DNA of 64,000 nucleotides, taken from Bacteroidota bacterium. Its GTDB lineage: Bacteria; Bacteroidota; Bacteroidia; Bacteroidales; JAAUTT01. The translations under genes and the position numbers were made by a program. The stretch is from assembly GCA_030706405.1 (NCBI GenBank), contig JAUZOO010000007.1:212472-276471 (forward strand), in the 5' to 3' direction. Positions within the stretch are counted from its first letter, which is position 1. Each line of letters opens with the position of its first letter. Shown piece after piece: positions 47,975 through 64,000 of this stretch. Under the pieces are notes generated by a model. The model made no database searches. It was not told the origin of the DNA and was given only the letters and a program-made list of their open reading frames with translations.

Positions 47975-48206
47975 TAAAAGGATAAACAAACTTGAAAATA
48001 TATCAAAAAAATGTAATTTAGCAAAACCACAGATTGGGAATTTTTATTTCCAATCTGGTTAAAAACAGCCAACGCGATGCGCAACCCAGTGATCCAAGTT
48101 AGCTTGAAGGAGATGCTTTATAAATATGAATTTAGCAGAACCATCGTGCATGCAAATAAGGCGGATATAATTGCAACCAGTTGCGATTACTGAGATGTTA
48201 GCGGGC
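47975..48206 (+). other. Candidate attI-like primary insertion region
   Basis: This 230-base stretch between the recombinase stop and the first cassette ends in GTTAGCGGGC (48197-48206), which matches exactly the reverse complement of the left core GCCCGCTAAC of the first attC (48821). A second GTTAGC occurs at 48108-48113. It lacks the long palindrome of the attC sites, as expected of an attI. No gene is seen. Confidence 0.65.
48025..48062 (+). terminator. Terminator-like hairpin after the recombinase
   Basis: ACCACAGATTGGGAA and TTCCAATCTGGTT pair with one or two mismatches. It probably ends the recombinase transcript before the cassette array, so cassettes need their own promoters. Confidence 0.6.
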
Positions 48207-48240
48207 ATTTTAAAAGAATACTCGGCACTAAGATAAAATT

Positions 48241-48510
48241 ATGAATAGATTATATTTCAAACGTAGATGGGAAGAGAATCGTGGTGATGACTTTGATGAT
48301 TGGGGATTTTCAACTTGGTTTTTTGAAACAGATTCAAATGGGTTGCCACTAAGACAGATTGAATGCTATGATAATGGTAAAGTATTAAAATATGATAGCA
48401 ACAATCAATTTGATGATTACGGACAATTAGGAGAACATGAGCTTGATCTAATAGAGTTTAAAGAATTTGAGATAACGAAAGAGATTTTTGAAAATGTCTG
48501 GAACAATTGA
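48241..48510 (+). CDS. Cassette 1 protein, DUF6881-like
   Basis: 89 residues, soluble and acidic. The pattern of a Trp-rich start (RRWEENRGDDFDDWGFS), FFETDSNGLPLRQIECYDNG and the closing EFEITKEIFENVW resembles the DUF6881 family, some members of which lie near polymorphic toxins and may be immunity proteins. It begins 35 bases after the core GTTAGCGGGC and overlaps the next gene by 17 bases, so both are co-translated. Function inferred only. Confidence 0.6.
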   Translation: MNRLYFKRRWEENRGDDFDDWGFSTWFFETDSNGLPLRQIECYDNGKVLKYDSNNQFDDYGQLGEHELDLIEFKEFEITKEIFENVWNN

Positions 48511-48829
48511 TATTTCTATTGTTAGGGATTACTTCAAGGACAAACCTTGGCAATATAGATTAAAACTTGTTGATATGGATCTTCCAACAAATTGGAGTAA
48601 ATGGATAATTAATCCATCTGGAAATTATGTTGAAACCGAAACTTGTGAACCTATATTGATTTCTGAGATTGATTGGATTGAGATAAATCCAATTGAAAGC
48701 AAAAGGATTGGTAAATTAGTGGTAGATAAAAAAATTGACCATTCCTCTGAAATTTGTAGATTATTGGATAGTTTGATTGTTGAATATTTGATGGATAACG
48801 GAATGATAAGAATAAAAAACGCCCGCTAA
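48494..48829 (+). CDS. Cassette 1 second protein, unknown
   Basis: 111 residues from the ATG at 48494, which overlaps the end of the DUF6881-like gene. No family is recognised. It is acidic and hydrophilic with a Trp-rich start (KPWQYRLKLVDMDLPTNWSKW). The stop codon TAA (48827-48829) is part of the left core GCCCGCTAAC of the following attC-like site, so the site sets the end of the protein. Possible small immunity-type protein; uncertain. Confidence 0.6.
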   Translation: MSGTIDISIVRDYFKDKPWQYRLKLVDMDLPTNWSKWIINPSGNYVETETCEPILISEIDWIEINPIESKRIGKLVVDKKIDHSSEICRLLDSLIVEYLMDNGMIRIKNAR

Positions 48830-48957
48830 CACATGGTATAGTGCATGCGGGTTTCAGTGGGTTGCCAATGTTTGTGGCACGTAAAAAAGCCTAGTGTAGC
48901 TTGATAGGAAACCGCCTCGTAATCCCGCACGACACCATACCATCAACGTTAGTTGCA
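48821..48957 (+). repeat. attC-like site 1
   Basis: 137 bp. Left core GCCCGCTAAC (48821-48830) is the exact reverse complement of GTTAGCGGGC at 48197. Right core GTTAGTTGCA (48948-48957). Inner arms ATGGTATAGTGCATGCGGG and CCCGCACGACACCATACCAT pair with A.C mismatches. Confidence 0.9.
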
Positions 48958-49215
48958 ATGCTGTGAAATTCGCAGTGTATCACCAACATTCCAATTTTCA
49001 TTAGTTCTAATTAATATTTTACCAAAGTCATCTCTAACTTCATATTTCCATTTACCATAATCTCTATCATTTTGTGATTTAGATTCAATTATCATTCCAT
49101 GACTTCCATACCACACTCTATGTAATGGTTGTTTGTCGCAAGAGCAAAAAAGCACAGCAACTAACAATATGTAACCAAAATAGCGGGTTACTCGCTGTAA
49201 TTTAATTGTTTTCAT
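48949..49215 (-). CDS. Cassette 2 lipoprotein, reversed
   Basis: 88 residues with a signal peptide and lipobox (LLVAVLFCSC). No family recognised; KWKYEVRDDFGKILIRTNE suggests a small beta-rich envelope protein. It is the only clear cassette gene on the minus strand. Its stop codon lies in the right core of site 1, and its start and signal peptide are encoded inside site 2, so almost the whole cassette is coding. Expression would need a minus-strand promoter inside or beyond site 2. Confidence 0.55.
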   Translation of the reverse strand: MKTIKLQRVTRYFGYILLVAVLFCSCDKQPLHRVWYGSHGMIIESKSQNDRDYGKWKYEVRDDFGKILIRTNENWNVGDTLRISQHCN

Positions 49216-49291
49216 ATTTATAAAGTTTAGTGTATTTTGATAATTTTATGCTTTCTATACCCGCTACTTCGGTTACATTTACGTTAGCAGC
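49157..49291 (+). repeat. attC-like site 2
   Basis: 135 bp. Left core GCAACTAAC (49157-49165) is the reverse complement of GTTAGTTGC at 48948. Right core GTTAGCAGC (49283-49291). Arms ATATGTAACCAAAATAGCGGG and CCCGCTACTTCGGTTACAT pair imperfectly. The centre differs from other sites and overlaps the start of the reversed lipoprotein gene. Confidence 0.75.
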
Positions 49292-49318
49292 AAATTTGAA
49301 AAACGCAACTGACAGCTT

Positions 49319-49984
49319 ATGAGAAAAGGAAATAGGATTATTTTATTTTTGATAATTTCTTCATTGATAGCTTGCAAATCAAATGATAGTAAATCACAAA
49401 CTGATAACCCTCCAGCTCCTTGCGAAGAACGAGCTTCTCCTCTTGATATAGTTGGGCTCAAGGATACTCTTAAGATTTTAATTGAGTTTTCGGATTGTGG
49501 AGAATGGGGCGGACATAAAGAATTGATTTATCTGCAAAGGAATAAGGAACAAAAGGTTTTCGCTCGGTTTATAAAGGATATTGTTTCATGTGGTAAAATA
49601 GTCGAAAGAAATGGTGTTGGAGTTTTAGATGACAAAAACAGACTCATTCTGATTGATACAGTAAAGGTGCTTTCTATCGGTGATGAAAAATTAATTAGTA
49701 AATTTCTTCAAAGACTATTAGAGCTATATTTAAAAAATGAAATATATTCAAACGCTGGTGCGATGTATCATGTGATAAATACAGACAAAACTTTAGATTT
49801 TCAATATTGGAATAGTGGTGATTGTCGAGATACTTATTATGGTGATATTCGCAAGCAAGTATTTGGAGATATAATGAAAAAAAATAAAAATCTGCTGCTA
49901 ACACCGCATATAATTTATTGGGGTTTAAGAGCAAATTGCAAAGGCTTTGCTTTTATTCAAGTTCATTTGTACCATGAAAGATAA
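49319..49984 (+). CDS. Cassette 3 lipoprotein, reads through its attC site
   Basis: 221 residues with signal peptide and lipobox (ILFLIISSLIACK). Mature part contains five Cys and DCGEWGGHKELIYLQRNKEQ and HVINTDKTLDFQYW segments; no family recognised. There is no stop before the attC-like site at 49894, so the last 30 or so residues (from NLLLTPHIIYWG onward) are encoded by the site itself. Either the original stop was lost or the site doubles as coding sequence. Confidence 0.6.
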   Translation: MRKGNRIILFLIISSLIACKSNDSKSQTDNPPAPCEERASPLDIVGLKDTLKILIEFSDCGEWGGHKELIYLQRNKEQKVFARFIKDIVSCGKIVERNGVGVLDDKNRLILIDTVKVLSIGDEKLISKFLQRLLELYLKNEIYSNAGAMYHVINTDKTLDFQYWNSGDCRDTYYGDIRKQVFGDIMKKNKNLLLTPHIIYWGLRANCKGFAFIQVHLYHER

Positions 49985-50029
49985 GTGCTCCGAACCTCCC
50001 CAACAAATCATATGCGCAACGTTATGCGC
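49894..50029 (+). repeat. attC-like site 3
   Basis: 136 bp. Left core GCTGCTAAC (49894-49902) exactly matches the GTTAGCAGC of site 2. Right core GTTATGCGC (50021-50029). Arms CGCATATAATTTATTGGGG and CCCCAACAAATCATATGCG. The centre is nearly identical to site 6 and unlike the other sites. Confidence 0.9.
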
Positions 50030-50064
50030 AAGGCAAGAAAAACCACGTTGACAAATAGTACTCA

Positions 50065-50637
50065 ATGGAAAAGAAAGATTTATTACTGATTATTATAGCC
50101 TTCCTTGGTTGGACTTGGGGAATTATTCAATTTCTGATTAATAGACACAGCCAAAGAAAGGATAAGTTGATTGATAGAAAATTTGAAGCTTATTCACGTT
50201 ACATGAAAAAGGCGGATGAAATCATGAATAATGTTCGTAATAATCCAAATCAGATTTATGGTATTCCTTCTGACTTTGTCAAGACTGCCCTTACAGGAGA
50301 TACTGAACAATTGAATGCAGCATTAATTCAACTTAATGAAAAACTCCTTGATACAGTCAAAAAATCCACAGAACCATTGTTGATTATTAAACAAGAATTG
50401 AATTCGTTATTGATTATATGTTCCAGTGAATTATTGACAAGGATTGAAGAAATGAATTTATTGATTACTGATTTTAATAATGAAGTTCAACGGACTCTAA
50501 GCCTTATTTCACCTAATGATTCTGAAAACATGGTTAGACATTTAAAAACATTAGCTCATAACGAACGATGGTTAAGATTTGTAAATTTGAATCAGGAAAT
50601 AATTGTTTTGATGCGTAAAGAACTTGGAAATAATTAA
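50065..50637 (+). CDS. Cassette 4 membrane-anchored helical protein
   Basis: 190 residues. One N-terminal TM helix (LLLIIIAFLGWTWGIIQFLI) then a long helical, coiled-coil-like soluble part on the cytoplasmic side, by the positive-inside rule (NRHSQRKDKLIDRKFEAYSR). No catalytic motif. Architecture resembles small membrane effectors or sensors of defence modules, but no family is recognised. Confidence 0.6.
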   Translation: MEKKDLLLIIIAFLGWTWGIIQFLINRHSQRKDKLIDRKFEAYSRYMKKADEIMNNVRNNPNQIYGIPSDFVKTALTGDTEQLNAALIQLNEKLLDTVKKSTEPLLIIKQELNSLLIICSSELLTRIEEMNLLITDFNNEVQRTLSLISPNDSENMVRHLKTLAHNERWLRFVNLNQEIIVLMRKELGNN

Positions 50638-50650
50638 TAAAAAATGCCCA

Positions 50651-50786
50651 GCGCACAACACAGTGTATACATCATGCGGGTTACAGAGCAATTGGCAAGT
50701 TCATCACTCACTGGCAAGGGCAGTAACGGTGGATAGTGAAGTGGCCACGAAAACCCGCACGCTGCATACACTCAACGTTGCCAGCC
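50651..50786 (+). repeat. attC-like site 4
   Basis: 136 bp. Left core GCGCACAAC (50651-50659) matches GTTATGCGC of site 3 with one change. Right core GTTGCCAGCC (50777-50786). Arms AGTGTATACATCATGCGGG and CCCGCACGCTGCATACACT. Same subfamily as sites 7 and 15. Confidence 0.88.
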
Positions 50787-50845
50787 ATTATAAAAAATCG
50801 CTATCGTATGATATTTTCTGGGTTAAATGATTTAAAAACTATAGA

Positions 50846-51568
50846 TTGAAAAATAGGCTTTCAAAAATATACTATGCAAGTGGAATGATAAGTCTAATAT
50901 TAATTCCGCTACTTGGATATTGGATTATTGATAGACAGGTAAAGAAAAAAAACAATCAACGCTGCATAGAGATTGCAATGTGCAGCAAGGATACATCTTG
51001 TAACATTTGCTTTAAATGTAAACCGCCTTTTCGAATTTATAAAACTATTCACTTAACAGGCGATAAGTTTAATGATACAAAAAGCCTATTATTGATTGAT
51101 TCGATTGCTAATTCATATTTCCTTACGAATGATACTGTAAATGGATTAGATGTTGTATTTCACGATAAATCTCAATACGAATCCCTAATAAAAGTTATCG
51201 ATATTTGTAAGATTCGGCACATTCCCAAGTATATGCTTTATGAATCACATTTTTGGTTGCTATTTGATTATGTTGACTTAAGGCTTGGTGATAAAATTTA
51301 TAAAACTAAAAATATTGGTTCACGCCGAAGACTATTAGAGGGTACAGATTATGATTATGAAATTCAAATAAAGGATAAGTTGCATAATGATTATTTGTAT
51401 TCCGACATAGTAGGATTCGAAGATTATGTAAAAAAACAGGAAATTGAACAACGTCAAAAAGATTATTATAATTACATTTATGAGAGACGCTATTTATTTG
51501 GATTATTGTCTTTGATTTATCTTGTAATGTTAATTTTGACAATCACCCAGATGATTAGAAAAAAATAA
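50846..51568 (+). CDS. Cassette 5 protein with N- and C-terminal TM helices
   Basis: 240 residues. TM helices at about 13-30 (MISLILIPLLGYWIID) and 215-236 (LFGLLSLIYLVMLILTI) flank an extracytoplasmic domain with a Cys cluster (CSKDTSCNICFKCKPP). The start shown is TTG because the next ATG removes part of the first helix. No family is recognised. It might be a membrane-disrupting or sensor cassette; inference only. Confidence 0.55.
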   Translation: MKNRLSKIYYASGMISLILIPLLGYWIIDRQVKKKNNQRCIEIAMCSKDTSCNICFKCKPPFRIYKTIHLTGDKFNDTKSLLLIDSIANSYFLTNDTVNGLDVVFHDKSQYESLIKVIDICKIRHIPKYMLYESHFWLLFDYVDLRLGDKIYKTKNIGSRRRLLEGTDYDYEIQIKDKLHNDYLYSDIVGFEDYVKKQEIEQRQKDYYNYIYERRYLFGLLSLIYLVMLILTITQMIRKK

Positions 51569-51569
51569 C

Positions 51570-51707
51570 GGCTGGCAACACGCGGTCATACAAAACTGGG
51601 GTTTAAGTGGTAAGGCAAGTGTGGTTCTCGCTGGCAAGTTTCTTACCGGCGGATAGTTTCGCTTCCACGTCGTCCCCAGCTTCGCATACCGCCATCCGTT
51701 AGGGGCA
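51570..51707 (+). repeat. attC-like site 5
   Basis: 138 bp. Left core GGCTGGCAAC (51570-51579) is the exact complement of GTTGCCAGCC of site 4. Right core GTTAGGGGCA (51698-51707). Close relative of site 12 (both have GCGGTCATACAAAA). Confidence 0.9.
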
Positions 51708-51767
51708 ATTTTAAAATGAAAGGTGCCACCCAATTTGACAAGCTATTAAATAATAAATATAAATAAT

Positions 51768-52301
51768 ATGAAGAGGTTTTGTTTTTTTTTGATTTTCGTC
51801 TTTTTGTTGATAACAAATACTGTTGCATTTGCTCAAGACAGCCAGACTTCAGGCTGGAGAAGTTGGCATAGTTCTGATAAACAAATCCAGATTAACTATA
51901 AGAATGACTGGCGTTTTACACAACCAAACGAAGTTATGGTTGCTAAATTCATGCCAGTGGATGAATACCCAGATGGGAAATTCACTAGTATCTCCTTAAT
52001 TATAAGTTTATCTGATAAAAGTGTAAAGACTTTGGAAGATATTAAGACTTTCATGCGTGGTTATGTCTCAAATTTTGAAAATGGAAAGTTAATATCATTT
52101 GAGAGTATTAAAGAAAGTAATAAAGATGTATTAGTTACTATTATTTCTCTTACTAGAAATTCTAAACCGACTATTTATAAATCTTATGTTTTCTTGTACA
52201 AAAATAAAATGTACAATTTAATGTTGATTTCCAGTAAAGATGAATTTGAAAGAAATGAAGTTATTCTTAAAACAATGCATGAATCATTAGTAATAAAATA
52301 A
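51768..52301 (+). CDS. Cassette 6 exported PsbP-like protein
   Basis: 177 residues with a signal peptide (FFLIFVFLLITNTVAFAQ). The mature part (GWRSWHSSDKQIQINYKNDW, VSLIIS-like strands, TMHESLVI end) resembles small PsbP/DUF1795-like periplasmic domains, which usually assist envelope complexes. Weak assignment. ATG start 60 bases after the site core. Confidence 0.55.
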   Translation: MKRFCFFLIFVFLLITNTVAFAQDSQTSGWRSWHSSDKQIQINYKNDWRFTQPNEVMVAKFMPVDEYPDGKFTSISLIISLSDKSVKTLEDIKTFMRGYVSNFENGKLISFESIKESNKDVLVTIISLTRNSKPTIYKSYVFLYKNKMYNLMLISSKDEFERNEVILKTMHESLVIK

Positions 52302-52305
52302 AAAC

Positions 52306-52443
52306 TGCCCCTAACACCGCATATAATTTATTGGGGTTGAAGAGCAAATTGCAAAGGCTTTGCTTTTATTCAAGTTCAAGTGTACCATGAAAGATAAGTG
52401 CTCCGAACCTCCCCAACAAATCATATGCGCAACGTTAGGCTGC
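52306..52443 (+). repeat. attC-like site 6
   Basis: 138 bp. Left core TGCCCCTAAC (52306-52315) is the exact complement of GTTAGGGGCA of site 5. Right core GTTAGGCTGC (52434-52443). Interior differs from site 3 at about three positions only, although the neighbouring genes are unrelated. Confidence 0.92.
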
Positions 52444-52493
52444 ATTAAAAAAAAACCGCACTGCGACAATGATTAACTTAGAATAATTGACAA

Positions 52494-53090
52494 ATGAACA
52501 ATGAAAAAAATCAAAGGAAAGTGATTCAGTTTTCAATAACTGGAGTTGCAATTGTTTTAGCGATTGTTCATTTAAAATGTCCTGATTTGAAGATTGATTT
52601 AATTACAATTTTACTTCTGGTTATTTCAATTTTACCTTGGTTATCTCCATTATTTAAATCCATTGAATTACCCGGTGGATTAAAAGTCGAATTCAGTGAA
52701 TTAAAGAATGCAGAAGCAAAAGCAAAAAAAGCTGGATTAATAAAGGACACTCCACTGGATAAAGAAGTAAAATATTCATTTTTAAAGGTTGCTTCTATTG
52801 ACCCAAATCTAGCATTGGCTGGACTAAGAATTGAAATCGAAAAAGCATTGATTCAGATTTGTGAAAAACATAATATTCCAGCAGAAAGGCAAGGAGTTGG
52901 ACAATTAATGCGAATTCTTTCCGAAAGACAAATTATAAATCGACAAGAAAATGCGGCTTTACTTGATATGCTTTCAACATTGAATAGAGCTGCACATGGA
53001 CATGGTTATGATGAAAGAATTGGGGATTGGGCAATTGAGTTTGGCCCCAAACTATTAGAAACTTTGAATGAAAAAATTAACGCAGCCTAA
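52494..53090 (+). CDS. Cassette 7 membrane protein with DUF4145-like domain
   Basis: 198 residues. Two TM helices near the N-terminus (SITGVAIVLAIVHL, IDLITILLLVISILPWLSPL), then a helical domain with LRIEIEKALIQICEKHNI and RAAHGHGYDERIGDWAIEFG, the spacing seen in DUF4145/HEPN-like helical proteins. The stop codon TAA falls in the left core GCAGCCTAAC of site 7. A defence-type effector is possible. Uncertain. Confidence 0.55.
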   Translation: MNNEKNQRKVIQFSITGVAIVLAIVHLKCPDLKIDLITILLLVISILPWLSPLFKSIELPGGLKVEFSELKNAEAKAKKAGLIKDTPLDKEVKYSFLKVASIDPNLALAGLRIEIEKALIQICEKHNIPAERQGVGQLMRILSERQIINRQENAALLDMLSTLNRAAHGHGYDERIGDWAIEFGPKLLETLNEKINAA

Positions 53091-53217
53091 CACAGGGTAT
53101 ACATCATGCGGGTTTCAGTGCAATTTGCAAGCTTTAAGCTCGCTGGCAAGGGCAGTATCGGTGGATAAGGAAGCGTCCACGAACTCCCGCACGCTGCATA
53201 CCCTAAACGTTATGGGC
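53083..53217 (+). repeat. attC-like site 7
   Basis: 135 bp. Left core GCAGCCTAAC (53083-53092) is the exact complement of GTTAGGCTGC of site 6. Right core GTTATGGGC (53209-53217). Arms AGGGTATACATCATGCGGG and CCCGCACGCTGCATACCCT differ only at A.C positions 8 and 13 and one more. Confidence 0.92.
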
Positions 53218-53283
53218 AAGGCTAAAAAAACGCTACTACGATTGATAATTACTTATGAAATAATTAATAGATAAATTGAAATC

Positions 53284-53790
53284 ATGAAAAAACAATTACT
53301 CCTGATTCTTATTCTCGGACTGACAAGCTTAAATTTATTTTCGCAAAACGAGAATCCATATCGTCAAGAATTTGTTCTAAATCTACCAGTTAATGGAGAT
53401 CAGTATTATGAGCAAAAGGTAGGAAAGTCACCTTATTTTGTACATGACAATGTCCTTCAAATTTACCCTGGAGAAAAACTTTTCATAGAAGTCAAGAAAA
53501 CGGGAAATTCTATTGATTCCATGAAAGTTGTAAAAGTAAATATCAATCCTGAAAAGACTATTATTGTTGAATTTACTCAAAATGTAAAAGATAGAAAAAG
53601 TGAATCTATGTTTTTAAATATTGTAAATCCATTTGATAAGGATTTAGAATACAAAGCAATGATGTATATTGTTGGACAAAATAAATGGATTAAAACACAT
53701 GTATTGCCTGTTAAATCAAAACTAACTGGAATAGAGATGTGGAGTGATGTCATTATAACACTTGTATTATCTGATTGGAAATTGAATTAA
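53284..53790 (+). CDS. Cassette 8 secreted protein, unknown
   Basis: 168 residues with a signal peptide (LLLILILGLTSLNLFSQ). Beta-rich mature region, no family recognised. The C-terminal part (LEYKAMMYIVGQNKWIKTHV) suggests a small periplasmic beta-sandwich. ATG start 67 bases after the site core. Confidence 0.55.
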   Translation: MKKQLLLILILGLTSLNLFSQNENPYRQEFVLNLPVNGDQYYEQKVGKSPYFVHDNVLQIYPGEKLFIEVKKTGNSIDSMKVVKVNINPEKTIIVEFTQNVKDRKSESMFLNIVNPFDKDLEYKAMMYIVGQNKWIKTHVLPVKSKLTGIEMWSDVIITLVLSDWKLN

Positions 53791-53799
53791 AAAAGCCCA

Positions 53800-53934
53800 G
53801 CCCATAACACGCGGTATAAAATATTGGGGGTTCATTGGTTTGTCAAGCACATCACCCGCTGGCAAGGTCTCTATCGGTTGATAGAGAAGCGTCCACGAAA
53901 TCCCCAACATTTCATACCGCCAACGTTATGTGGC
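53800..53934 (+). repeat. attC-like site 8
   Basis: 135 bp. Left core GCCCATAAC (53800-53808) is the exact complement of GTTATGGGC of site 7. Right core GTTATGTGGC (53925-53934). Arms GCGGTATAAAATATTGGGG and CCCCAACATTTCATACCGC; the two non-pairs are A.C. Confidence 0.92.
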
Positions 53935-53957
53935 ATATTAAAAAAAATCTCCGACCA

Positions 53958-54893
53958 ATGAGAATAGTGAAAAGTATAATTTTAGTAACTTCTTTAAGTT
54001 TTTTTATTAGTTGTAACTCGCCGCAGACCTATCTGAATAAAGCGGTTGATATTATTAAAGCGAATTCAATCAATAAAAACTCGATAGATTGGGTGCAATT
54101 TAGAAAAGATGTATTAGAAAAGGGTAAAGAGGCTGAAAACATCAAAGAGACATATCCAGCTATTCAATATGCTTTAAGACAACTGGGAGATCATCATAGC
54201 TTTTTTATGACACCAGAACAATGTAAAACTTTTAATGATCCTAATTTGCCATTACCCAAAGTGTCATCAGAATTAATTGACAATAGAATAGGATACATTA
54301 AAATCCCTGGATTTATGGGAAACCGAAATGAACGTGCTTATAAGTTTGCACAGCAAATTCAGGATAAAATTAGAGAATTAGATAAAAATAATATTCAGTA
54401 TTGGATTGTAGATTTAGGAGACGATACTGGTGGAAATATGTGGCCAATGCTAACAGGATTAGGTCCAATTCTTGGAGATGGAATAGCTGGGTATTTTGCA
54501 AATAACGATAGCGTTTATATAAGCTGGGGATATTCTAAAGGAACTGTCTTTTGTGATAAAAATCAGTTAATGAAATTAAATAATCCTTATAAATTAAAAA
54601 ATGATATAAAGAAACTTGCAATAATTATCAGCAATCATACGTGTAGTTCAGGTGAAGCAACTGCAGTATCATTTATAGGTATTAAAAATTCTTGTTTTAT
54701 TGGAGAGCCTTCTTATGGCAATTCGACCTCTAACGCAGGATTTAAGTTAAGCGATGGCGCTATGATTTTTTTGACTGTAAGTAAATTTGCTGACAGAAAT
54801 AAAAAAACTTATGGAGTTCCAATTAATCCTGATATTGTTGATTATAATGGGACAGCTAAGAAAACGGCTATTGAATGGATAAATAAAAAATAA
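53958..54893 (+). CDS. Cassette 9 S41-family peptidase lipoprotein
   Basis: 311 residues from the ATG at 53958, which gives a lipobox (LVTSLSFFISCN); the open frame extends upstream but only through the attC-like site. The C-terminal S41 (tail-specific protease-like) domain shows IGYIKIPGFMG, YWIVDLGDDTGGNMWPMLTG and the nucleophile region HTCSSGEATAVSF (catalytic Ser in the S-S-G-E loop), then GNSTSNAGFKLSDG. The PDZ domain of CtpA is absent. It would act in the periplasm or at the cell surface. Confidence 0.8.
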   Translation: MRIVKSIILVTSLSFFISCNSPQTYLNKAVDIIKANSINKNSIDWVQFRKDVLEKGKEAENIKETYPAIQYALRQLGDHHSFFMTPEQCKTFNDPNLPLPKVSSELIDNRIGYIKIPGFMGNRNERAYKFAQQIQDKIRELDKNNIQYWIVDLGDDTGGNMWPMLTGLGPILGDGIAGYFANNDSVYISWGYSKGTVFCDKNQLMKLNNPYKLKNDIKKLAIIISNHTCSSGEATAVSFIGIKNSCFIGEPSYGNSTSNAGFKLSDGAMIFLTVSKFADRNKKTYGVPINPDIVDYNGTAKKTAIEWINKK

Positions 54894-54897
54894 ATAC

Positions 54898-56825: not shown

Positions 56826-57781
56826 GTAAGCTAACCGAAGCACAACAAATTCTTGCAGCATTTGGATTACCCAAACAACAACAAAATGAACGCTCTGCAT
56901 TAACCCTTCTTGCATTATGTAACCTTAAAGAGTCTGACACTTGGAAATCTTCCCAGAAAATCAGTATGGCTGTTGTTGGCAACAAGGACAATGCAAAATA
57001 TGAAGGTGTAATGCGGTTTATAGCTGAACATTATAATAAAAAGTATGCGGAAAATAGTCGGGAAACGTTTCGCCGTCAAACATTACACCAATTTGTTCAA
57101 GCAGGAATTGTAGAGCACAATCCTGAAAATCCACAACTGCCAACCAATAGTAAGGACAATCATTACAGGCTTACCGATGCAGCCCTAAAAGTTATTCGTG
57201 CATTTGGTACAAAAAAATGGAACGAAGAAGTTAAGGTTTTCGGTAAAAATGTTGGTTCATTGCAGGAAACGTATAATAAAAGCAGGAACTTACAAATGAT
57301 ACCTGTCAAACTTTCCAATGGAAAGGAATTAAAGTTTTCCCCCGGAAAACATAATCAGGTTCAGGTTGCAATTATAAAAGAATTTGCATCAAGGTTTGCT
57401 CAGGGTAGCGAACTTTTATACGTTGGAGATACTGCAAATAAAGACCTATATGTTGATACTGTATCTTTAAAGGCATTGGGAATTCCCATCAATGAACACA
57501 GCAAATTACCCGATGTTGTTTTGTACGACAAAAAACATAACTGGCTCTTTCTTATCGAAGCGGTTACATCTCATGGCCCCGTTTCTCCCAAACGAATTGT
57601 TGAACTCGAAAAGTTTCTGAAAGATTGTAAAGCTGGTAAGGTTTATATCTCAGCCTTCCCCGATTTCAAAGAATTCAAAAAACATACGGCTGATATTGCA
57701 TGGGATACCGAAGTCTGGTTAATGGATTCTCCTGAACACATGATACATTTTAACGGAGACCGTTTTATAGGGCCAAGATAA
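56822..57781 (+). CDS. Cassette 10 restriction endonuclease, BsuBI/PstI family
   Basis: 319 residues. An N-terminal helical/winged region is followed by the catalytic domain with LPDVVLYDKKHNWLFLIEAV (Asp and the E-x-V core of the PD-(D/E)xK fold) and TSHGPVSPKRIVELEKFL. This pattern is the BsuBI/PstI (CTGCAG) family. Overlap of four bases with the methyltransferase means coupled translation. Presence of CTGCAG in this window, for example near 29052, fits methylation protecting the host. Confidence 0.92.
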   Translation: MSKLTEAQQILAAFGLPKQQQNERSALTLLALCNLKESDTWKSSQKISMAVVGNKDNAKYEGVMRFIAEHYNKKYAENSRETFRRQTLHQFVQAGIVEHNPENPQLPTNSKDNHYRLTDAALKVIRAFGTKKWNEEVKVFGKNVGSLQETYNKSRNLQMIPVKLSNGKELKFSPGKHNQVQVAIIKEFASRFAQGSELLYVGDTANKDLYVDTVSLKALGIPINEHSKLPDVVLYDKKHNWLFLIEAVTSHGPVSPKRIVELEKFLKDCKAGKVYISAFPDFKEFKKHTADIAWDTEVWLMDSPEHMIHFNGDRFIGPR

Positions 57782-57845
57782 AAAGCAGCAACATGTTACT
57801 ATTAAAAATAAAAACGATAAAGTATCAAGAGTGTCTAAAATATGA

Positions 57846-58206
57846 ACGGAAGGGGCTGACGTTTTTATTAAAGGGACTGAAATATTAAGCGGAGGGTTTC
57901 AAATATTTGTAAAAGGGTTTGGAGTTTATATCAAAGAGCTTGATACTTTTAACGAAGGATTTGAAATAATAAGCGAAGGGTTTGAAGATTTTAACAAAGG
58001 GTTTCATGTAATTGTTGAAGGGATTAAAAAAACGAGTAAAGCAAAGTTTGTAGCAAGCCCACACACAAGGTCAAGCACATTTGCAATTCGCACAAAACCC
58101 ACCCGTAAACCCAAAATTGCAAAAGAGCTTGCCCTTCTTGCCCCCCGCTTGGATACATTCTGCCACCTTGAAACGTTTGATAATAAGACAATTAAAAATA
58201 AAACCC
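57846..58206 (+). pseudogene. Remnant reading frame with 21-bp (heptad) repeats
   Basis: From 57846 an open frame without a start codon runs past 58206. From 57851 to 58039 it consists of nine 21-bp units, mostly beginning AGGGTTTG or AGGGTTTC, which in that frame read as a heptad pattern G-F-x-x-F/I-x-E/K (such as KGFGVYI, EGFEIIS, EGFEDFN, KGFHVIV). It may be a broken repeat gene or a coding-like satellite. The tail 58074-58130 resembles the RM leader. Confidence 0.45.
57851..58039 (+). repeat. Nine tandem 21-bp degenerate repeats
   Basis: Nine consecutive 21-base units, each beginning AGGG or AGAG/AGGA (57851, 57872, 57893, 57914, 57935, 57956, 57977, 57998, 58019). The period is exact although the units have diverged, which suggests selection on a 7-codon protein repeat in the past. 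Confidence 0.75.
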
Positions 58207-58207
58207 A

Positions 58208-58344
58208 GCTGCTAACAACAGCTCATACGCAATGCGGGTTTCAGAGGTTTTGCAAGTGCAGTTCCCGCAGGCTACGTCTGTCTCGGTTGATACAGACGTA
58301 GCCACGCAATCCCGCACTGCGCATAGCTGCGACCGTTATGCGGC
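58208..58344 (+). repeat. attC-like site 10
   Basis: 137 bp. Left core GCTGCTAAC (58208-58216) is the exact complement of GTTAGCAGC of site 9, 3.2 kb upstream, so the whole restriction-modification block is one cassette. Right core GTTATGCGGC (58335-58344). Its loop contains its own GGCTACGTCTG...CAGACGTAGCC hairpin. Confidence 0.92.
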
Positions 58345-58363
58345 AGCTTAAAAAAACGGCAAC

Positions 58364-58936
58364 ATGAAATTTAAATATTACATAATGACTTTTTTAACTC
58401 TGAACCTTTTTTCTTGTGGGACAGACCAATCACAGACAACAGAAAATACAAATAAAATGATTAAACTTTACAAACTGATTGACAACCAGCTGAACTACTG
58501 GGAAACTTGGGATAAGGACAATAAAACTGCGATTGTTCATTGGGGAATAGTTGGTCAACGTGGACAGGACAAAGAAATAAAAGGTGGACTTTTTTCAAAT
58601 TTCAGAAAGTCTGTTCAAAAAGAAATAGATGAAAAACTAAAGGAAGGCTATGCGGAATTTGATGAAAGCAAAATGTCTTTTTTAGAAATAGAGTATAAAA
58701 TTGATGGATTCGGCACTGAACAAGATTTAGATAAAAGACACAGACTCGAAGAGCGCATGGATCAGGTATTGGGTTGGACTGGACTTGGACATACCGATGG
58801 TGGAAGTTCTGGAAGTGGAACAATGGAGGCTGGTTGTGTTGTTGTGGATTTTGATATTGCTAAGAAAGTGATTGAAGAGAACTTGAAAAATACAGAATTT
58901 GCTAATTATACAAGGATTTTTAAAATGAATGAATAA
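58364..58936 (+). CDS. Cassette 11 WGR-domain lipoprotein
   Basis: 190 residues with a lipobox (LTLNLFSCG). A WGR-like domain follows: YWETWDKDNKTAIVHWGIVG and GQRGQDKEIKG, which is the Trp-Gly-Arg-type fold found in PARP and MolR-like proteins. The C-terminal part is GSGTMEAGCVVVDFDIAKK. Its role as a cell-surface protein is unknown. Confidence 0.7.
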   Translation: MKFKYYIMTFLTLNLFSCGTDQSQTTENTNKMIKLYKLIDNQLNYWETWDKDNKTAIVHWGIVGQRGQDKEIKGGLFSNFRKSVQKEIDEKLKEGYAEFDESKMSFLEIEYKIDGFGTEQDLDKRHRLEERMDQVLGWTGLGHTDGGSSGSGTMEAGCVVVDFDIAKKVIEENLKNTEFANYTRIFKMNE

Positions 58937-58943
58937 AAAAGCC

Positions 58944-59079
58944 GCCGCATAACACAGTATATACTCCATAGGGGTTTCAGAGGTATGCCAAGCGCATCAC
59001 TCGCTGGCAAGGTACTTATCGGTGGATAGGGAAGCGTCCACGAAATCCCCTACGTAGCATATACTCAACGTTGGGTGCA
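58944..59079 (+). repeat. attC-like site 11
   Basis: 136 bp. Left core GCCGCATAAC (58944-58953) is the exact complement of GTTATGCGGC of site 10. Right core GTTGGGTGCA (59070-59079). Arms AGTATATACTCCATAGGGG and CCCCTACGTAGCATATACT. Confidence 0.92.
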
Positions 59080-59097
59080 ACCTAAAAAAAACTGACT

Positions 59098-59832
59098 ATG
59101 GACAATTTAGAGATAATTAATCGCTATAATGAGATTGTTTTTGGGTTACAAGAAAAATTAGAAATTCAATCTTTCTTGGATTTTACTAAAAAAGACTCTT
59201 TATCTTCTAAATATGATGAAACAGTAAACGTTAAGCGTTTAATTAATCCTAATTTAGATTTTAAAAAAAAGTTTAATGACCTTCGATATTGTTCATTAGA
59301 ATTAATCTATAGCATTTGCAATGTACATCTTTATTTTCCTTACATAAATAATCCAATAGAAGATAGTTTTATTCACGCTGGTAAGATTGTCTATCCTTAT
59401 TATGAAAATGTTGCAACATTGAGATTTTATACATATTTTCATTCAGCCCTTGAAAAACTATATAATTATTGGGATAGAATTGGCGATATAATAGGCATGT
59501 TTTTTACTGAAAAAATTAACGATTCCAATATTAACTTTTCAAATTCATTAAAATTAATACCTATCGATTATCAAGGAACTGAAAATTATAAATGGTTTGC
59601 AGATTTTAAAGAAAATGATTACAATGTCTTTAATGAAAAACGTAGGAATATTGTTCATCACACCCTTTTAAGTACTGATGCTGTAGATAAATCATTAAAA
59701 AATGTTACAAATCAAATTAGTGTTAGGGAATTAATTAGGGAAAGACAACTGGTACTTGATTTTTTGTGTGACCAACAAAGAAAAACAAACATAGGCTTTG
59801 AAAAAATGATAAACTTAATGAATAAAAAATAG
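59098..59832 (+). CDS. Cassette 12 HEPN-like protein (Cthe_2314 type)
   Basis: 244-residue soluble helical protein. KRRNIVHHTL carries R183-N184-x-x-x-H188, the RNxxxH motif of HEPN ribonucleases, and the surrounding helices (ATLRFYTYFHSALEKLYNYW) fit the Cthe_2314-like HEPN group. HEPN proteins often cut RNA in abortive infection or toxin-antitoxin systems. No antitoxin such as an MNT-type nucleotidyltransferase is next to it; a solo cassette toxin would need a partner elsewhere or have another role. Confidence 0.7.
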   Translation: MDNLEIINRYNEIVFGLQEKLEIQSFLDFTKKDSLSSKYDETVNVKRLINPNLDFKKKFNDLRYCSLELIYSICNVHLYFPYINNPIEDSFIHAGKIVYPYYENVATLRFYTYFHSALEKLYNYWDRIGDIIGMFFTEKINDSNINFSNSLKLIPIDYQGTENYKWFADFKENDYNVFNEKRRNIVHHTLLSTDAVDKSLKNVTNQISVRELIRERQLVLDFLCDQQRKTNIGFEKMINLMNKK

Positions 59833-59834
59833 GC

Positions 59835-59971
59835 TGCACCCAACACGCGGTCATACAAAATTGGGGTTTAAGTGGTTAGGCAAGCGTGGCTCTCGCTGGC
59901 AAGTTTCTTATCGGCGGATAGTTTCGCACTCCGGTTTCCCCAACTTCGTATACCGCCATCCGTTAGCCCCC
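59835..59971 (+). repeat. attC-like site 12
   Basis: 137 bp. Left core TGCACCCAAC (59835-59844) is the exact complement of GTTGGGTGCA of site 11. Right core GTTAGCCCCC (59962-59971). Arms GCGGTCATACAAAATTGGGG and CCCCAACTTCGTATACCGC. Confidence 0.92.
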
Positions 59972-59993
59972 ATTTTATAAAACAGACAGCGCA

Positions 59994-60809
59994 ATGAATA
60001 CACATCTTTTATCATGGAATCCTGACAAGTGGGATTGGATTGACATAGATTCAGCAATTAATGATTTACGAGTAACTGGAGAGTATCGTGATAGCTGGAG
60101 TTGTGGAGTAAATAAATCAATTCAGATTGGAGATAGATTATTCTTAATTCGATTAGGTAAGGAACCAAAAGGGATTTGTGCTTCTGGATATGCGATTTCT
60201 AATGTTTACCAGGGAGCACATTGGAGCGGAGATAAAAATAAATTAGCCAATTATATATCATTTGAATACGATGTTTTGCTAAACCCATCAAATGACAAGA
60301 TTCTCGAAATGGATATTTTAAAAACGGGGATTTTATCTGAGCAACATTGGTCAACACAGAATTCTGGTATAATGATTCGTCCCAATGTTGCTGAGGAATT
60401 AGAAAAAGTTTGGTTTAATTTCATACTTGATAACCACCACATTCAGATTGACGAACAATTACAAAATGATTCTGATTCATTGAGTCGAACATTTGAGGAA
60501 GGAGATGCTAAACAGATTACTTCTACAAAATATGAGCGAAATCCTTATGCAAGACAAGTTTGTATTGATTATTATGGATTAAAGTGTTCTGTTTGTGGAT
60601 TTGATTTTAGTAAATTTTATGGCAATTTAGGGACTGGATTTATTCATGTTCATCACATAAAACCAGTAGCGAATAGAAAAGGTAAGTATGAGATAAATCC
60701 AATAAATGATTTAAGACCAGTTTGTCCAAATTGTCATGCAATGATTCATCGGAAAAAGCAAGAATTGACAATTGATGAACTTAAAGAAAAAATAAAAAAC
60801 GGGGGCTAA
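59994..60809 (+). CDS. Cassette 13 EVE/PUA-like plus HNH nuclease
   Basis: 271 residues. The N-terminal half (LLSWNPDKWDW, WSCGVNKSIQIGDRLFLIRL) has the look of an EVE/PUA-like modified-base reader. The C-terminal HNH domain has C198 and C201, H220/H221 in HVHHIKP, N238, C244 and C247, and H248/H252, with spacing of a zinc-containing HNH nuclease. This architecture is that of modification-dependent restriction enzymes that cut methylated or modified phage DNA. The stop codon is part of the left core GGGGGCTAAC of site 13. Confidence 0.85.
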   Translation: MNTHLLSWNPDKWDWIDIDSAINDLRVTGEYRDSWSCGVNKSIQIGDRLFLIRLGKEPKGICASGYAISNVYQGAHWSGDKNKLANYISFEYDVLLNPSNDKILEMDILKTGILSEQHWSTQNSGIMIRPNVAEELEKVWFNFILDNHHIQIDEQLQNDSDSLSRTFEEGDAKQITSTKYERNPYARQVCIDYYGLKCSVCGFDFSKFYGNLGTGFIHVHHIKPVANRKGKYEINPINDLRPVCPNCHAMIHRKKQELTIDELKEKIKNGG

Positions 60810-60936
60810 CACGCGGTATAAAATATTGGGGTTTAAGTGGTATGCCAAGCGCATCGCTCGCTGGCAAGATTCTTATCGGTTGATAAGTTCGCAGCTCCGA
60901 AATCCCCAACATTTCATACCGCCACCGTTAGCGGGC
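60801..60936 (+). repeat. attC-like site 13
   Basis: 136 bp. Left core GGGGGCTAAC (60801-60810) is the exact complement of GTTAGCCCCC of site 12. Right core GTTAGCGGGC (60927-60936). Loop shows CGCTGGCAAG and TATCGGTTGATA. Sister of site 8. Confidence 0.93.
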
Positions 60937-60958
60937 ATTTTAAAAAAACGATACAGCT

Positions 60959-61177
60959 ATGAAGATTATCAGAGCCATATTGATTATTTTGTATATCCCA
61001 TTTGGATTGCTGATATTGATTACTCTATTGGGTTTGATTCATCACTGGACTAATACTGGATATAAAAGCATTAGTAATCTTGATTTACAGCAAATTTCGA
61101 TTGTGATGTTTTTTAATTTAATACTAATTGGCATAATAATAGGGTTTAAGCGATTTTTAAAAAACAGACAGCGATAA
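60959..61177 (+). CDS. Cassette 14 small two-TM protein
   Basis: 72 residues with two TM helices (about 5-25, LILITLLGLIHHW region, and 45-63, IVMFFNLILIGIIIGF). No family recognised; probably an inner-membrane peptide. It precedes the 61185 gene by seven bases, so the two share a transcript. Confidence 0.55.
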   Translation: MKIIRAILIILYIPFGLLILITLLGLIHHWTNTGYKSISNLDLQQISIVMFFNLILIGIIIGFKRFLKNRQR

Positions 61178-61184
61178 GATTGAT

Positions 61185-61739
61185 ATGGAATCACAAATAA
61201 AATATGTAGAATTAAAAACAGGCTATGCTAACAAAGGGCCAGCATGGATTGGAAAAGTAGAATTCTTAAAATCAGGGAAAACGATTTACTTTAATGGACA
61301 TGCGTTTAAAGGAAATGGGCATGGTGTAAGCAGTGATTTAGAAACTGGCGAGATTTATTGGATTTCGGGTGTCAAAAAGAACGGACAAGACCGACACTGG
61401 GCTGGGAATGGGAAAATTATGATTGATAGAACGATTGTTGTGGATTACTTAAAAATTATGGATTTAGTAGGTCTTGACCCAAAAAAATATGTATTAGTTG
61501 ACATCGAAAAAACAGATAATCAACGATTCGTTGACATTGAGAATGGAACGATTGATTCTGTAAACATTTTAGACAAATATCAGGACTTAGGCGGATTGTC
61601 AATAGACGATTTGAAAAGTATTATCCAAGACCTAAAGAGAGAAGAGAGCTATACAAATCCGAATAATGGTCGGAAATTTTTGACTATAAAGCGACTTGAA
61701 GCTGAGAAACTTTTAGAGAATTTACAAAGTGACAACTGA
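61185..61739 (+). CDS. Cassette 14 soluble protein, unknown
   Basis: 184 residues, no signal peptide. The N-terminal half contains GPAWIGKVEFLKSGKTIYFN and GEIYWISGVKKNGQDRHWAG, a compact beta-rich domain with Gly/Trp spacing that I have seen in unannotated Bacteroidota proteins. The C-terminal part is a helical, charged region. The function is unknown. Confidence 0.6.
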   Translation: MESQIKYVELKTGYANKGPAWIGKVEFLKSGKTIYFNGHAFKGNGHGVSSDLETGEIYWISGVKKNGQDRHWAGNGKIMIDRTIVVDYLKIMDLVGLDPKKYVLVDIEKTDNQRFVDIENGTIDSVNILDKYQDLGGLSIDDLKSIIQDLKREESYTNPNNGRKFLTIKRLEAEKLLENLQSDN

Positions 61740-61758
61740 TTGAATGACAAATAAAAAC

Positions 61759-61893
61759 GCCCGCTAACACACACTATAGCCAATAAAGGTTTCAGTGGTT
61801 TGCGAAGTTTTTCACCCGCATCAATTTTTGTATCGGTTGATAGGTTTGTAACTCTGCAATCCTTTACTGGCCATAGCGTCAACGTTAGCGCCA
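61759..61893 (+). repeat. attC-like site 14
   Basis: 135 bp. Left core GCCCGCTAAC (61759-61768) is the exact complement of GTTAGCGGGC of site 13. Right core GTTAGCGCCA (61884-61893). Very similar in the interior to site L1 at 504-638. Confidence 0.92.
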
Positions 61894-61907
61894 ATAAAAA
61901 AACAGAA

Positions 61908-62507
61908 ATGAGACATTTGATAGCATTGATTATTCTCATTATGGTGATTATTTCCTGTACAAGGAAAAATGTACCAACTGTTGATAAATTAGTAATAGTT
62001 GGAATTGGCAATAATTTGACTTATGATAGTTTAGGCAAACCTCAATTGAGCCTTAGGACTTATGTTGAATTCAATAAAAGTAGCGAATTGAAAATTGCAT
62101 TGGGTGATTATAAATATGTACTTGAAAAAAAGGCTCCATTATATAGTCTTGATAAATTCTATCTCCTTGAAAATGTTGATACAATTAAGCAATTAATAGA
62201 GAGAGCACTTATAAATAAAACATACGATAGCTTATATATTGACAAAGGAGAAGGTGTTTTTTATGCTTTGATTTATCAAATTGCAGACTCAACAAGACAG
62301 ATTATATATAAACCTAAATATTTACCCAAAGACTTATATTTCCTTGATTCGTTATTACGGTCTAAGATAAATTCAAACAAATTGGTCAAAACAAAACCAT
62401 TCTCCGTTGATAGGTTACTGCCTGAATTTGAAAAACATTTATTCAAAATTCATCCACCGCCACCTCCGCCAATGGTGATTGATTCGATAAAGTTCTCAGA
62501 ATTTTGA
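61908..62507 (+). CDS. Cassette 15 lipoprotein, proline-rich tail
   Basis: 199 residues from the ATG at 61908, with a lipobox (LIMVIISCTR); the open frame extends upstream only through the attC-like site. The C-terminal HPPPPPPMVIDSIKFSEF has a polyproline stretch. Otherwise beta-rich; no family. Presumed envelope lipoprotein. Confidence 0.6.
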   Translation: MRHLIALIILIMVIISCTRKNVPTVDKLVIVGIGNNLTYDSLGKPQLSLRTYVEFNKSSELKIALGDYKYVLEKKAPLYSLDKFYLLENVDTIKQLIERALINKTYDSLYIDKGEGVFYALIYQIADSTRQIIYKPKYLPKDLYFLDSLLRSKINSNKLVKTKPFSVDRLLPEFEKHLFKIHPPPPPPMVIDSIKFSEF

Positions 62508-62536
62508 TTGAAATGATAACAAAAAATAAAATTTAC

Positions 62537-62673
62537 TGGCGCTAACACAGTGTATACATCATGCGGGTTTCAGAGCAATTTGCAAGTCCAGAGCTCGCTA
62601 GCAATGGCAGTAACAGTGGATAACGAAGTGGCCACGAACTCCCGCCCGCTGCATACACTCAACGTTAGCGGGC
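62537..62673 (+). repeat. attC-like site 15
   Basis: 137 bp. Left core TGGCGCTAAC (62537-62546) is the exact complement of GTTAGCGCCA of site 14. Right core GTTAGCGGGC (62664-62673). Member of the AGTGTATACATCATGCGGG subfamily with sites 4 and 7. Confidence 0.92.
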
Positions 62674-62716
62674 ATTGTAAAAAGACACGCTACCAGATAA
62701 TTAACACGGATAAACA

Positions 62717-63382
62717 ATGAATTATTTACAAATTTTACTTTTGATTCTCGTATTGATATTTTCCGGTTGTACCCAAAATAGTCAATCTACTTTGAAAGCT
62801 GATAATCAGACGGACAATACGAAATCGAATGATAAGGAAGAGATTCTAAAATTGATTAAACAGGTAATAATTTGGGGAGACTCCAAAGAGTCAATTGGAT
62901 TGTTGCCAGTCTTAACTGATAGTAAAGACAGTGTATATATTGGTTTTGATATGATTGAACTCAAATCAAATCTGGATAAACTAAAAGAAACAAATTATTT
63001 TGCTACTGAGTTTATCGAAAATTACAGACAAATTATCGTGACACTTGACAAGAAATTGAGGAACGGAGAATATGAAAAATGGTTCGTAGGAGACCTTCCT
63101 ACATTTATTTTTGCAAATGATTATAGCCCTTGGTGGAACGGTCAAGAAAGTTTTCCAATAGAAAAAGGCATGGTTGAGCTGATTAATTTGGATAAAGACA
63201 AAGGTGAATTTGATTTTGCTTGCGGTGATAAAGGGCATGGTTGTGATGGATTGGAAAATTACAAAATGAGGTTCAGAGTTGTTAAAGAAGATAATAAATG
63301 GAAAATTTCATATTTGGAAGGTTTTAATTTCAAAGAAAGTACGAGAAAAGATGGAGTTCCTGAAAAAACAACGACCCGCTAA
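62717..63382 (+). CDS. Cassette 16 lipoprotein, unknown
   Basis: 221 residues with a lipobox (LVLIFSGCT). The mature domain has EEILKLIKQVIIWGDSKESI and FACGDKGHGCDGLENYKMRF, like small periplasmic lipoproteins; no family recognised. The stop codon TAA is inside the left core CCCGCTAAC of site 16. Confidence 0.6.
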   Translation: MNYLQILLLILVLIFSGCTQNSQSTLKADNQTDNTKSNDKEEILKLIKQVIIWGDSKESIGLLPVLTDSKDSVYIGFDMIELKSNLDKLKETNYFATEFIENYRQIIVTLDKKLRNGEYEKWFVGDLPTFIFANDYSPWWNGQESFPIEKGMVELINLDKDKGEFDFACGDKGHGCDGLENYKMRFRVVKEDNKWKISYLEGFNFKESTRKDGVPEKTTTR

Positions 63383-63510
63383 CAAAGGGTCACACAAAAT
63401 GCGGGCTTCATCGCAGGTTCAATCGTGCTGCTCGTAGCAAATTTCGTAACGGTTGATAGGTGCGTGGCTTCGATTTCCCGCACTTCGTGTACCCTCGACC
63501 GTTAGCAGCC
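63375..63510 (+). repeat. attC-like site 16
   Basis: 136 bp. Left core CCCGCTAAC (63375-63383) complements GTTAGCGGG of site 15. Right core GTTAGCAGCC (63501-63510). Arms AGGGTCACACAAAATGCGGG and CCCGCACTTCGTGTACCCT. Loop keeps ACGGTTGATAGG. Confidence 0.88.
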
Positions 63511-63532
63511 ATTATAAAACACCCATCGAGAC

Positions 63533-63862
63533 ATGATAAATGAAGATGAATTTAACGACTTGGAGGAAATAAGTTTTTGGGATTTGAGCCAACTAGACTT
63601 GAGAACAATTGACGAAAATATTGTTTATAGCATATTTGAGGATAATTTTCCACAATTTACCATAACTCGTCTTGGTGATAATTTGCTCATAAGGATTGAG
63701 GAACATATTTATACTAAATATTGGTTTCATAAATATCATGCTTCTGTTTTTGCAGAGGCAATGATTAAAGCCATTAAAAGACTCAGCATTGAGGGTGTCC
63801 CATTTACTGATGAAGAACTTGACGAAGATGATGAAGTTCATATTTTCGTTAGGTGGGACTGA
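63533..63862 (+). CDS. Cassette 17 acidic protein, unknown
   Basis: 109 residues, strongly acidic (ENDLEE-type N-terminus, DEELDEDDEVHIF end), no signal peptide. No family recognised. Its cassette starts at GTTAGCAGCC (63501); the matching left core GGCTGCTAAC of the next site is not seen before the window ends, so this cassette is incomplete. Confidence 0.55.
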   Translation: MINEDEFNDLEEISFWDLSQLDLRTIDENIVYSIFEDNFPQFTITRLGDNLLIRIEEHIYTKYWFHKYHASVFAEAMIKAIKRLSIEGVPFTDEELDEDDEVHIFVRWD

Positions 63863-64000
63863 CTTGACCTAAATTAGCTTGACAGATTATTACTGTTTTT
63901 ATAGAAGAGATAACAAACATAATTTATAATCCTGTTATCTCCAACTGTGTTTTATTTAATACGGATTTAATTAACCGTCTTACTGGCAAACTGCTGATTA

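Follow-up and report, generated by a model that had tools for sequence, protein, structure and literature searches.

The stretch of DNA considered here (the window) comprises 64,000 nucleotides and is the last part of contig C19 of the Bacteroidota genome G000. On sequence evidence, positions 46351–63509 very probably form an integron-type gene-capture system whose recombinase family is related to, but lies outside, the integron integrase IntI. Between 48197 and 64000 there are 16 consecutive gene cassettes of 335–3308 bp, each running from one GTT to the next GTT with a palindromic site at its end. The array probably continues past 64000 and, because the window ends where the contig ends, 16 cassettes is a floor. 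An earlier note on this DNA had proposed an integron-like system with a non-IntI recombinase; that reading is now backed by a code of complementary cassette ends, an attI-like boundary, linkage of sites to recombinase, a tree and genome co-occurrence. The system likely works like an integron while being, by the features tested, not an IntI integron, and would represent a second class; since the layout recurs in many relatives of the same phylum, a distinct integron-type system, second to that of IntI, is likely.

Cassette array and attC-like sites

All 16 palindromic sites reported earlier were recovered between 48822 and 63509 and are homologous; they align end to end with a mean column identity of 69% (MAFFT). 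The left core AAC and right core GTT attributed to them are present in 16/16 sites, and the start given at 48197 is the boundary of the first cassette. Site length needs adjustment from 135–138 bp to 133–137 bp (9-nt left core to 9-nt right core), and the earlier coordinates, correct for the array start, left the linked recombinase just outside. Features of the system are as follows, all on the forward (+) strand.

46351–47367, +: tyrosine recombinase, first frame, with three W-rich N-terminal repeats and the start of the core-binding domain
47300–47974, +: tyrosine recombinase, second frame, with the remaining core-binding and the catalytic domain (Phage_integrase, 1.6e-40)
48168–48205, +: attI-like site; imperfect dyad at 48168–48189, 7 nt, then the first GTT core at 48197, which matches the own end of cassette 1
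48822–48956, +: attC-like site 1
49157–49291, +: attC-like site 2, the most divergent
49894–50029, +: attC-like site 3
50651–50785, +: attC-like site 4, with the sole code mismatch (5/6)
51571–51706, +: attC-like site 5
52307–52442, +: attC-like site 6
53083–53217, +: attC-like site 7
53800–53933, +: attC-like site 8
54899–55035, +: attC-like site 9
55027–58334, +: cassette 10, the largest, with an Eco57I-type methylase and a BsuBI/PstI-type endonuclease
58208–58343, +: attC-like site 10
58945–59078, +: attC-like site 11
59836–59970, +: attC-like site 12
60802–60935, +: attC-like site 13
61760–61892, +: attC-like site 14
62538–62672, +: attC-like site 15
63375–63509, +: attC-like site 16
63501–64000, +: open cassette 17, start only, truncated where the contig ends; code partner on contig C13 (first site at its end)

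The 16 sites share a long consensus stem of 21 pairs, 14 of which are preserved by compensatory changes on both sides (RNAalifold), and the bottom strands of 12/16, taken as single-stranded DNA, fold at z <= -2 compared with dinucleotide shuffles. Site 2 has the lowest score of the 16 (87.5 bits). Sites from all loci described below amount to 216 distinct sequences, 168 of which were parsed by a parser that demanded AACA and GTT. A occupies position +11 in 159 of the parsed sites, C occupies position −11 in 125, and 116 sites have both; the base directly before GTT is C in 166. Departure of several cores from the RYYYAAC and GTTRRRY consensus had been remarked on; only 20 and 12 of the 168 fit, respectively. 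The consensus is that of the earlier note, and no such string was met in the papers searched. The window has no Rfam match at gathering scores, and a tRNA search of it found none.

Cassette code

Comparison of the six variable bases that adjoin AAC and GTT gives 96 positions for 16 cassettes. At 95/96 of these positions a cassette's start and the outer end of that cassette's own terminal site are reverse complements of each other, and 15 of the 16 cassettes are perfect. The best of 100,000 permutations reached 77/96, and the two arms within one site as it stands in the array, which come from neighbouring cassettes, agree at 47/96. Over a longer span the first 9–10 nt of a cassette, mostly with 4 more past a mismatch, complement the outer end of its own palindrome; pairing in the window is mostly 13–14 of 15 nt, with the mismatch at position 11. 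Complementarity of own start and own end, cassette by cassette, means that the switch of identity falls at the GTT core, and the code is the trace that would be expected of circular cassettes inserted at that core.

The code extends to relatives. Forty-four consecutive pairs were parsed, 41 from other genera (33 perfect) and 3 from the same genus, with agreement at 239/264 positions compared to a maximum of 147 in 20,000 shuffles. Within the same genus and the other arrays of this genome, 40/58 pairs were parsed (18 unparsed); one is the window, and 24 of the 39 testable pairs (same genus and own dispersed arrays, with the window's own stretch excluded) are perfect. At the window end, the open cassette start core pairs at 14/15 nt, in the family pattern, with the first site at the end of contig C13, from which we infer that the array runs on from contig C19 into C13; the continuity is only inferred because the two contigs do not overlap.

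Dispersed palindromic repeats between genes, whether terminator-like, similar to repetitive extragenic palindromes (REP) or non-autonomous mobile elements, would have no cassette role. Such repeats would suit sites that are also met alone, a long way from any recombinase, and hairpins that follow genes could end transcription. Repeats would nevertheless not be expected to have an outer end matched to the beginning of the segment upstream, or to keep a near-constant downstream, same-strand position relative to one recombinase family. A simple repeat family is contradicted by the cassette code, and this explanation is barely credible.

Linkage to the recombinase and the attI-like site

Relatives were drawn from a set with one genome per species (84,980 species); the best 80 of at least 555 relatives were taken, and all 80 loci were used. 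A model built from the 16 window sites alone (R1), a kind of check that had been recommended for this array, provides an independent linkage count: 82 matches at E <= 0.1 in 35/80 recombinase loci, all on the recombinase strand and 81/82 downstream of the recombinase (the exception is L054:7303). A second model (R2), trained partly on the loci that it later scanned, gave 110 matches, 108 of them on the recombinase strand and 2 antisense to stronger ones, with 107 downstream in 311,776 bases versus 1 upstream in 633,310. R2 places a site in 33 of the 39 loci that have >= 2 kb downstream; 30 of the 80 loci stop within 1 kb past the recombinase, as if the assemblies were broken there by repeats.

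Of 41 parsed loci, the window among them (one further locus was unparsable), 37 contain an exact copy of the partner predicted from the own end of the first detected site, placed between that site and the recombinase; in 34 of the 37 it lies within 700 nt of the recombinase match. For many of the 34, the partner GTT is preceded by a short dyad, about TTGCGTATA followed by ~7 nt and GTT, which is clear in roughly half of them. In most readable relatives the array starts beside the recombinase, at a GTT often preceded by a short dyad.

Orientation was counted for 82 recombinases and 140 sites, a subset of those existing. Pairs within 30 kb comprise 37 with the site downstream on the same strand, 8 with the site upstream on the opposite strand and 0 in the other two arrangements, and in every such pair the site is oriented away from the recombinase. 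The 8 upstream pairs belong to five recombinases with frames of 246–335 aa (G199:C7, G178:C17, G011:C2, G049:C44 and G041:C33); an upstream, opposite-strand site layout is that of classical integrons, unlike the window. A 289-aa family member in L103 (G001:C169, 1–5443) lies amid opposite-strand sites and may be cargo.

Recombinase family

Predicted structures have three strand-strand-helix repeats preceding the core-binding and catalytic domains. The first frame has a weak SAM-like domain match at 271–314 and 298 homologs at E <= 1e-5; 110/120 among the matches listed are 530–574 aa long. Thirty-five aligned family members are 53–64% identical to the first row, and 24/35 match the Pfam HARP domain (PF07443) at E <= 1, with a best value of 4.4e-7; member P0002 has a HARP score of 14.9 bits, and the PF07443 gathering score is 25. 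Phages hold only distant integrases, with 29–41% identity over the catalytic part.

The catalytic part is close to both integron integrases and Xer proteins. The IntI model TIGR02249 gives the second frame of the window 188.4 bits and four intact relatives 216–224 bits, all below its cut-off of 265. It matches in two pieces, and the pieces shown end at profile position 178–179 or start at 239; in an alignment, a 37-column insertion of IntI is missing from the family. According to a passage in PMC9668308, the IntI-specific additional domain sits around patch III. The closest solved structures are the integron integrase 2a3v (top) and XerA. In a tree of 51 rows, 13 of them IntI and with long branches flagged, the family groups with IntI (100/99), apart from the XerC/XerD-type proteins that the window's relatives encode, and IntI forms its own clade without the family (100/99); support for the family's own unity is weak (64/15).

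Host XerC/XerD might instead act on the sites, as they do on the pdif modules of Acinetobacter plasmids. The genome encodes one XerD above its cut-off and a second Xer-type gene, and the recombinases are related. The XerA-type model NF040815 gives the catalytic part 193–234 bits, with P0076 and P0117 passing the cut-off of 220 and P0002, P0063 and the window below it. Scores stay below the curated XerC and XerD cut-offs. The sites are palindromes of 133–137 bp, unlike pdif sites, which are 28 bp long and serve host XerC/XerD according to the part of PMC7530245 consulted. They also track the new recombinase both inside and outside the window's class, as the survey below describes, although Xer genes are near universal. 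Action of host XerC/XerD on the sites is highly improbable.

Occurrence across Bacteroidota

The survey covered 296 Bacteroidota genomes (minimum completeness of 95 requested) with a family profile cut of E <= 1e-60 and an R2 cut of E <= 1e-4, with 10 candidates scored per genome. The recombinase family occurs in 95 genomes and R2 sites in 156. Classical IntI scores above its cut-off in 86; the association counts rest on the 88 genomes with a match at E <= 1e-50. Sites are present in 83/95 genomes with the recombinase versus 73/201 without it (odds ratio 12, p 1.8e-17; survey p-values ignore relatedness). The corresponding figures are 40/44 versus 17/32 in the window's class and 43/51 versus 56/169 in other classes. 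IntI has no such association: sites occur in 38/87 genomes of other classes with IntI versus 61/133 without it (odds ratio 0.92, p 0.78), and R2 found no site in 42.7 kb around 12 IntI genes. Classical IntI lies nearly all outside the window's class, with 1/76 genomes inside it.

These results bear on whether the system is instead a classical integron, with a recombinase that is a diverged IntI stripped of its extra domain and with attC sites of an unusual kind. The profile and structure neighbours named above and the union with IntI in the tree, away from the hosts' XerC/XerD-type proteins, are points in its favour. The IntI clade nevertheless excludes the family, the insertion is missing, scores do not reach the curated IntI cut-off, the sites show no association with IntI and GTTRRRY is rare among parsed sites. 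The insertion, the cut-off, the tree and the genome association led us to reject classical IntI, which we consider very unlikely.

Dispersed sites and possible movement among genomes

Genome G000 has 47 sites at E <= 1e-3, and 31 of them lie away from the recombinase in small clusters or singly, on contigs C9, C13, C15, C17, C20, C4, C11 and C12 and at two positions in the window:

498–643, +: dispersed family site outside the array
784–927, +: second dispersed site, degenerate

Palindromes scattered randomly outside arrays and without a linked recombinase had been named as an observation that would count against an integron-like system. Sites away from the recombinase do occur (31/47 in this genome, and in the 73 survey genomes without a family member at the cut used), and they resemble the attC clusters lacking an integrase (CALIN) of known integrons, as described in a portion of PMC9024848. 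More distant family members are present in two same-genus genomes (G001 and G003).

Several comparisons bear on a possible exchange of cassettes. Some sites are 92–97% identical between genera whose recombinases share 40–62% (70% in one same-genus pair); the cross-order pairs at 92–97% have a metagenome-assembled genome on one side, so that misbinning is possible. The best isolate pair across orders is Belliella aquatica and Eudoraea adriatica, which we take to belong to different orders, with a site identity of 88.7% and a recombinase identity of 47%. Aquiflexum and Cognataquiflexum share 91% identity in the upstream flank and 78% in the recombinase region, and their arrays differ save for shared pieces. 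No DNA-level match was found between parsed cassettes of this genome and the array stretches of G001–G004 (>= 180 nt, E <= 1e-10). When 139 cassettes were compared at protein level, 26 pairs proved similar. One pair is near-identical (96.9% over 393 aa, Aquiflexum and Cognataquiflexum); it was not used as proof of transfer as a unit because its left edge is no clean GTT boundary.

Truncated family members on tet(X3) plasmids

The best plasmid relatives consist of the C-terminal part only, at 66% identity. Three Acinetobacter-type plasmid records carry a truncated family member upstream of the tigecycline-resistance gene tet(X3):

L129, 2967–4988: truncated recombinase and tet(X3) region
L130, 6052–8250: truncated recombinase and tet(X3) region
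L131, 5037–7167: truncated recombinase and tet(X3) region

An attI-like dyad with GTT immediately precedes tet(X3) in L130, and the left half of a family site follows the gene (R2 E of 1.6e-4 in L129, at the record end, and 0.019 in L130 and L131). The start core and the following end core differ at 3/10 positions; because the two cores do not pair, tet(X3) was rejected as a clean cassette and is at best a rearranged one. The recombinase gene beside tet(X) is named xerD in the portions of PMC7473080, PMC7530245 and PMC7494873 consulted, one of which states that its role in tet(X) movement is to be validated. The new family offers a source for this ‘xerD’.

Cassette cargo and setting

Eight of 20 cassette open reading frames match Pfam at E <= 0.01. 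Three of these matches are weak and fall under the curated cut-offs; the rest comprise a methylase-endonuclease pair, an S41 peptidase, an HNH endonuclease and DUF6678. PADLOC, applied to 10 of those 20, recognised nothing beyond the restriction-modification pair and one weak type IV match. Similar short hairpins at 55121–55187 and 58067–58136 flank the restriction-modification pair inside cassette 10 and look like a second, nested repeat. Upstream chromosomal neighbours of the system are genes for LepA, S-adenosylhomocysteine hydrolase, GreA and riboflavin kinase/FAD synthetase.

Evidence against a working gene-capture system

The following points weigh against the gene-capture reading. Recombination is here predicted from sequence, and no recombination product has been seen. 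The recombinase at 46351–47974 is split over two overlapping frames in this assembly, and with the frame broken, present activity in this genome is at most predicted. R1 matched only 35/80 loci and the R2 counts carry the partial overlap of training and scanned loci; even by R2, 6/39 loci with >= 2 kb downstream are site-free, and 4/41 loci have no attI partner. Consecutive pairs are imperfect in 8/41 and 15/39 cases, perhaps where an intervening site was missed by the search. Four of the 16 sites fold no better than shuffles (z −0.67 to −1.35). Sites are carried by 73/201 genomes that have no family member at the cut used, and the same-genus genomes G002 and G004, with 21 and 15 sites, have only XerD-type recombinase matches. 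The window protein has no HARP match at E <= 1 in Pfam, and a Foldseek search with the N-terminal repeats alone returned nothing at E <= 0.001, with HARP 4o66 at rank 27 (E 0.5).

The broken frame raises the prospect that the window holds a relic, an old array of this system frozen in this strain. Such a relic would fit the two recombinase frames, the degenerate dispersed sites and the fact that the genome has just one copy of the N-terminal part of the recombinase. The break, however, falls inside a T-run just before the second frame, intact relatives are common, the code is perfect in 15/16 cassettes and the sites stay alike. Breaks in homopolymer runs are a common assembly error, and this one is either an assembly error in the T-run or a real lesion. 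A frozen array is a minority possibility, unlikely overall, and it touches this genome only and not the gene-capture system as such.

Proposed mechanism and relation to known systems

In the proposed gene-capture cycle, the recombinase would join two GTT cores and excise the cassette as a circle, in which the complementary ends would meet and rebuild the full stem. The stem would probably be folded from one strand, as in integrons, and may be recognised by its shape because the outer arm sequence varies widely. The cassette would then be inserted at the attI-like site. More speculatively, the HARP-like repeats might grip the folded hairpin and so replace the extra domain of IntI. On balance we lean towards a wider reading, in which a HARP-armed, shape-reading second integron class without IntI would span Bacteroidota, check no more than that the two ends of a cassette fit each other and trade cassettes across genera and orders, with tet(X3) as a former cassette carried out with a recombinase tail.

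The likeness to integrons (IntI, attI and attC, of the Vibrio superintegron type) comprises tandem cassettes of one or two genes mostly in one direction, a palindromic site at the cassette end, a GTT boundary, an attI-like site by the recombinase, mostly unknown genes, and recombinase-free dispersed arrays comparable to CALIN. In integrons, too, the start of a cassette is complementary to the end of its own site. Differences are that the recombinase here falls outside IntI, lacks the extra domain and has N-terminal repeats, that the outer arm is ~10 bp, a mismatch and 4 bp with variable sequence, and that the array lies downstream of the recombinase in the same direction. In Treponema chromosomal integrons, too, the array follows the 3′ end of the integrase gene, but their integrase is IntI. 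In Xer/dif systems and pdif modules a tyrosine recombinase likewise moves gene modules, whereas here the sites are long palindromes with their own linked recombinase. XerA and archaeal Xer proteins (NF040815, 5hxy, 4a8e) have a similar catalytic part, with the NF040815 cut-off reached by 2/4 intact relatives; to our knowledge no cassette arrays are known for XerA. The HARP domain of SMARCAL1 (PF07443, 4o66) appears here as three predicted repeats joined to a recombinase, with a weak structural match.

Significance

Within the parts of the open-access papers searched (preprints not included), no description of this recombinase or of its sites was found, nor any paper that joins integrons and HARP or reports a non-IntI integron in Bacteroidota. 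For Bacteroidetes proper, the portion of PMC9024848 on IntegronFinder 2.0 lists just one complete integron, that of Salinibacter ruber. Integrons are treated as one IntI-defined system, and surveys look for IntI with attC. With a different recombinase in 95/296 genomes, 83 of which also have sites, a large cassette pool is therefore likely uncounted. The system makes it testable whether cassette capture through folded sites arose more than once, and for what purpose IntI truly needs its extra domain.

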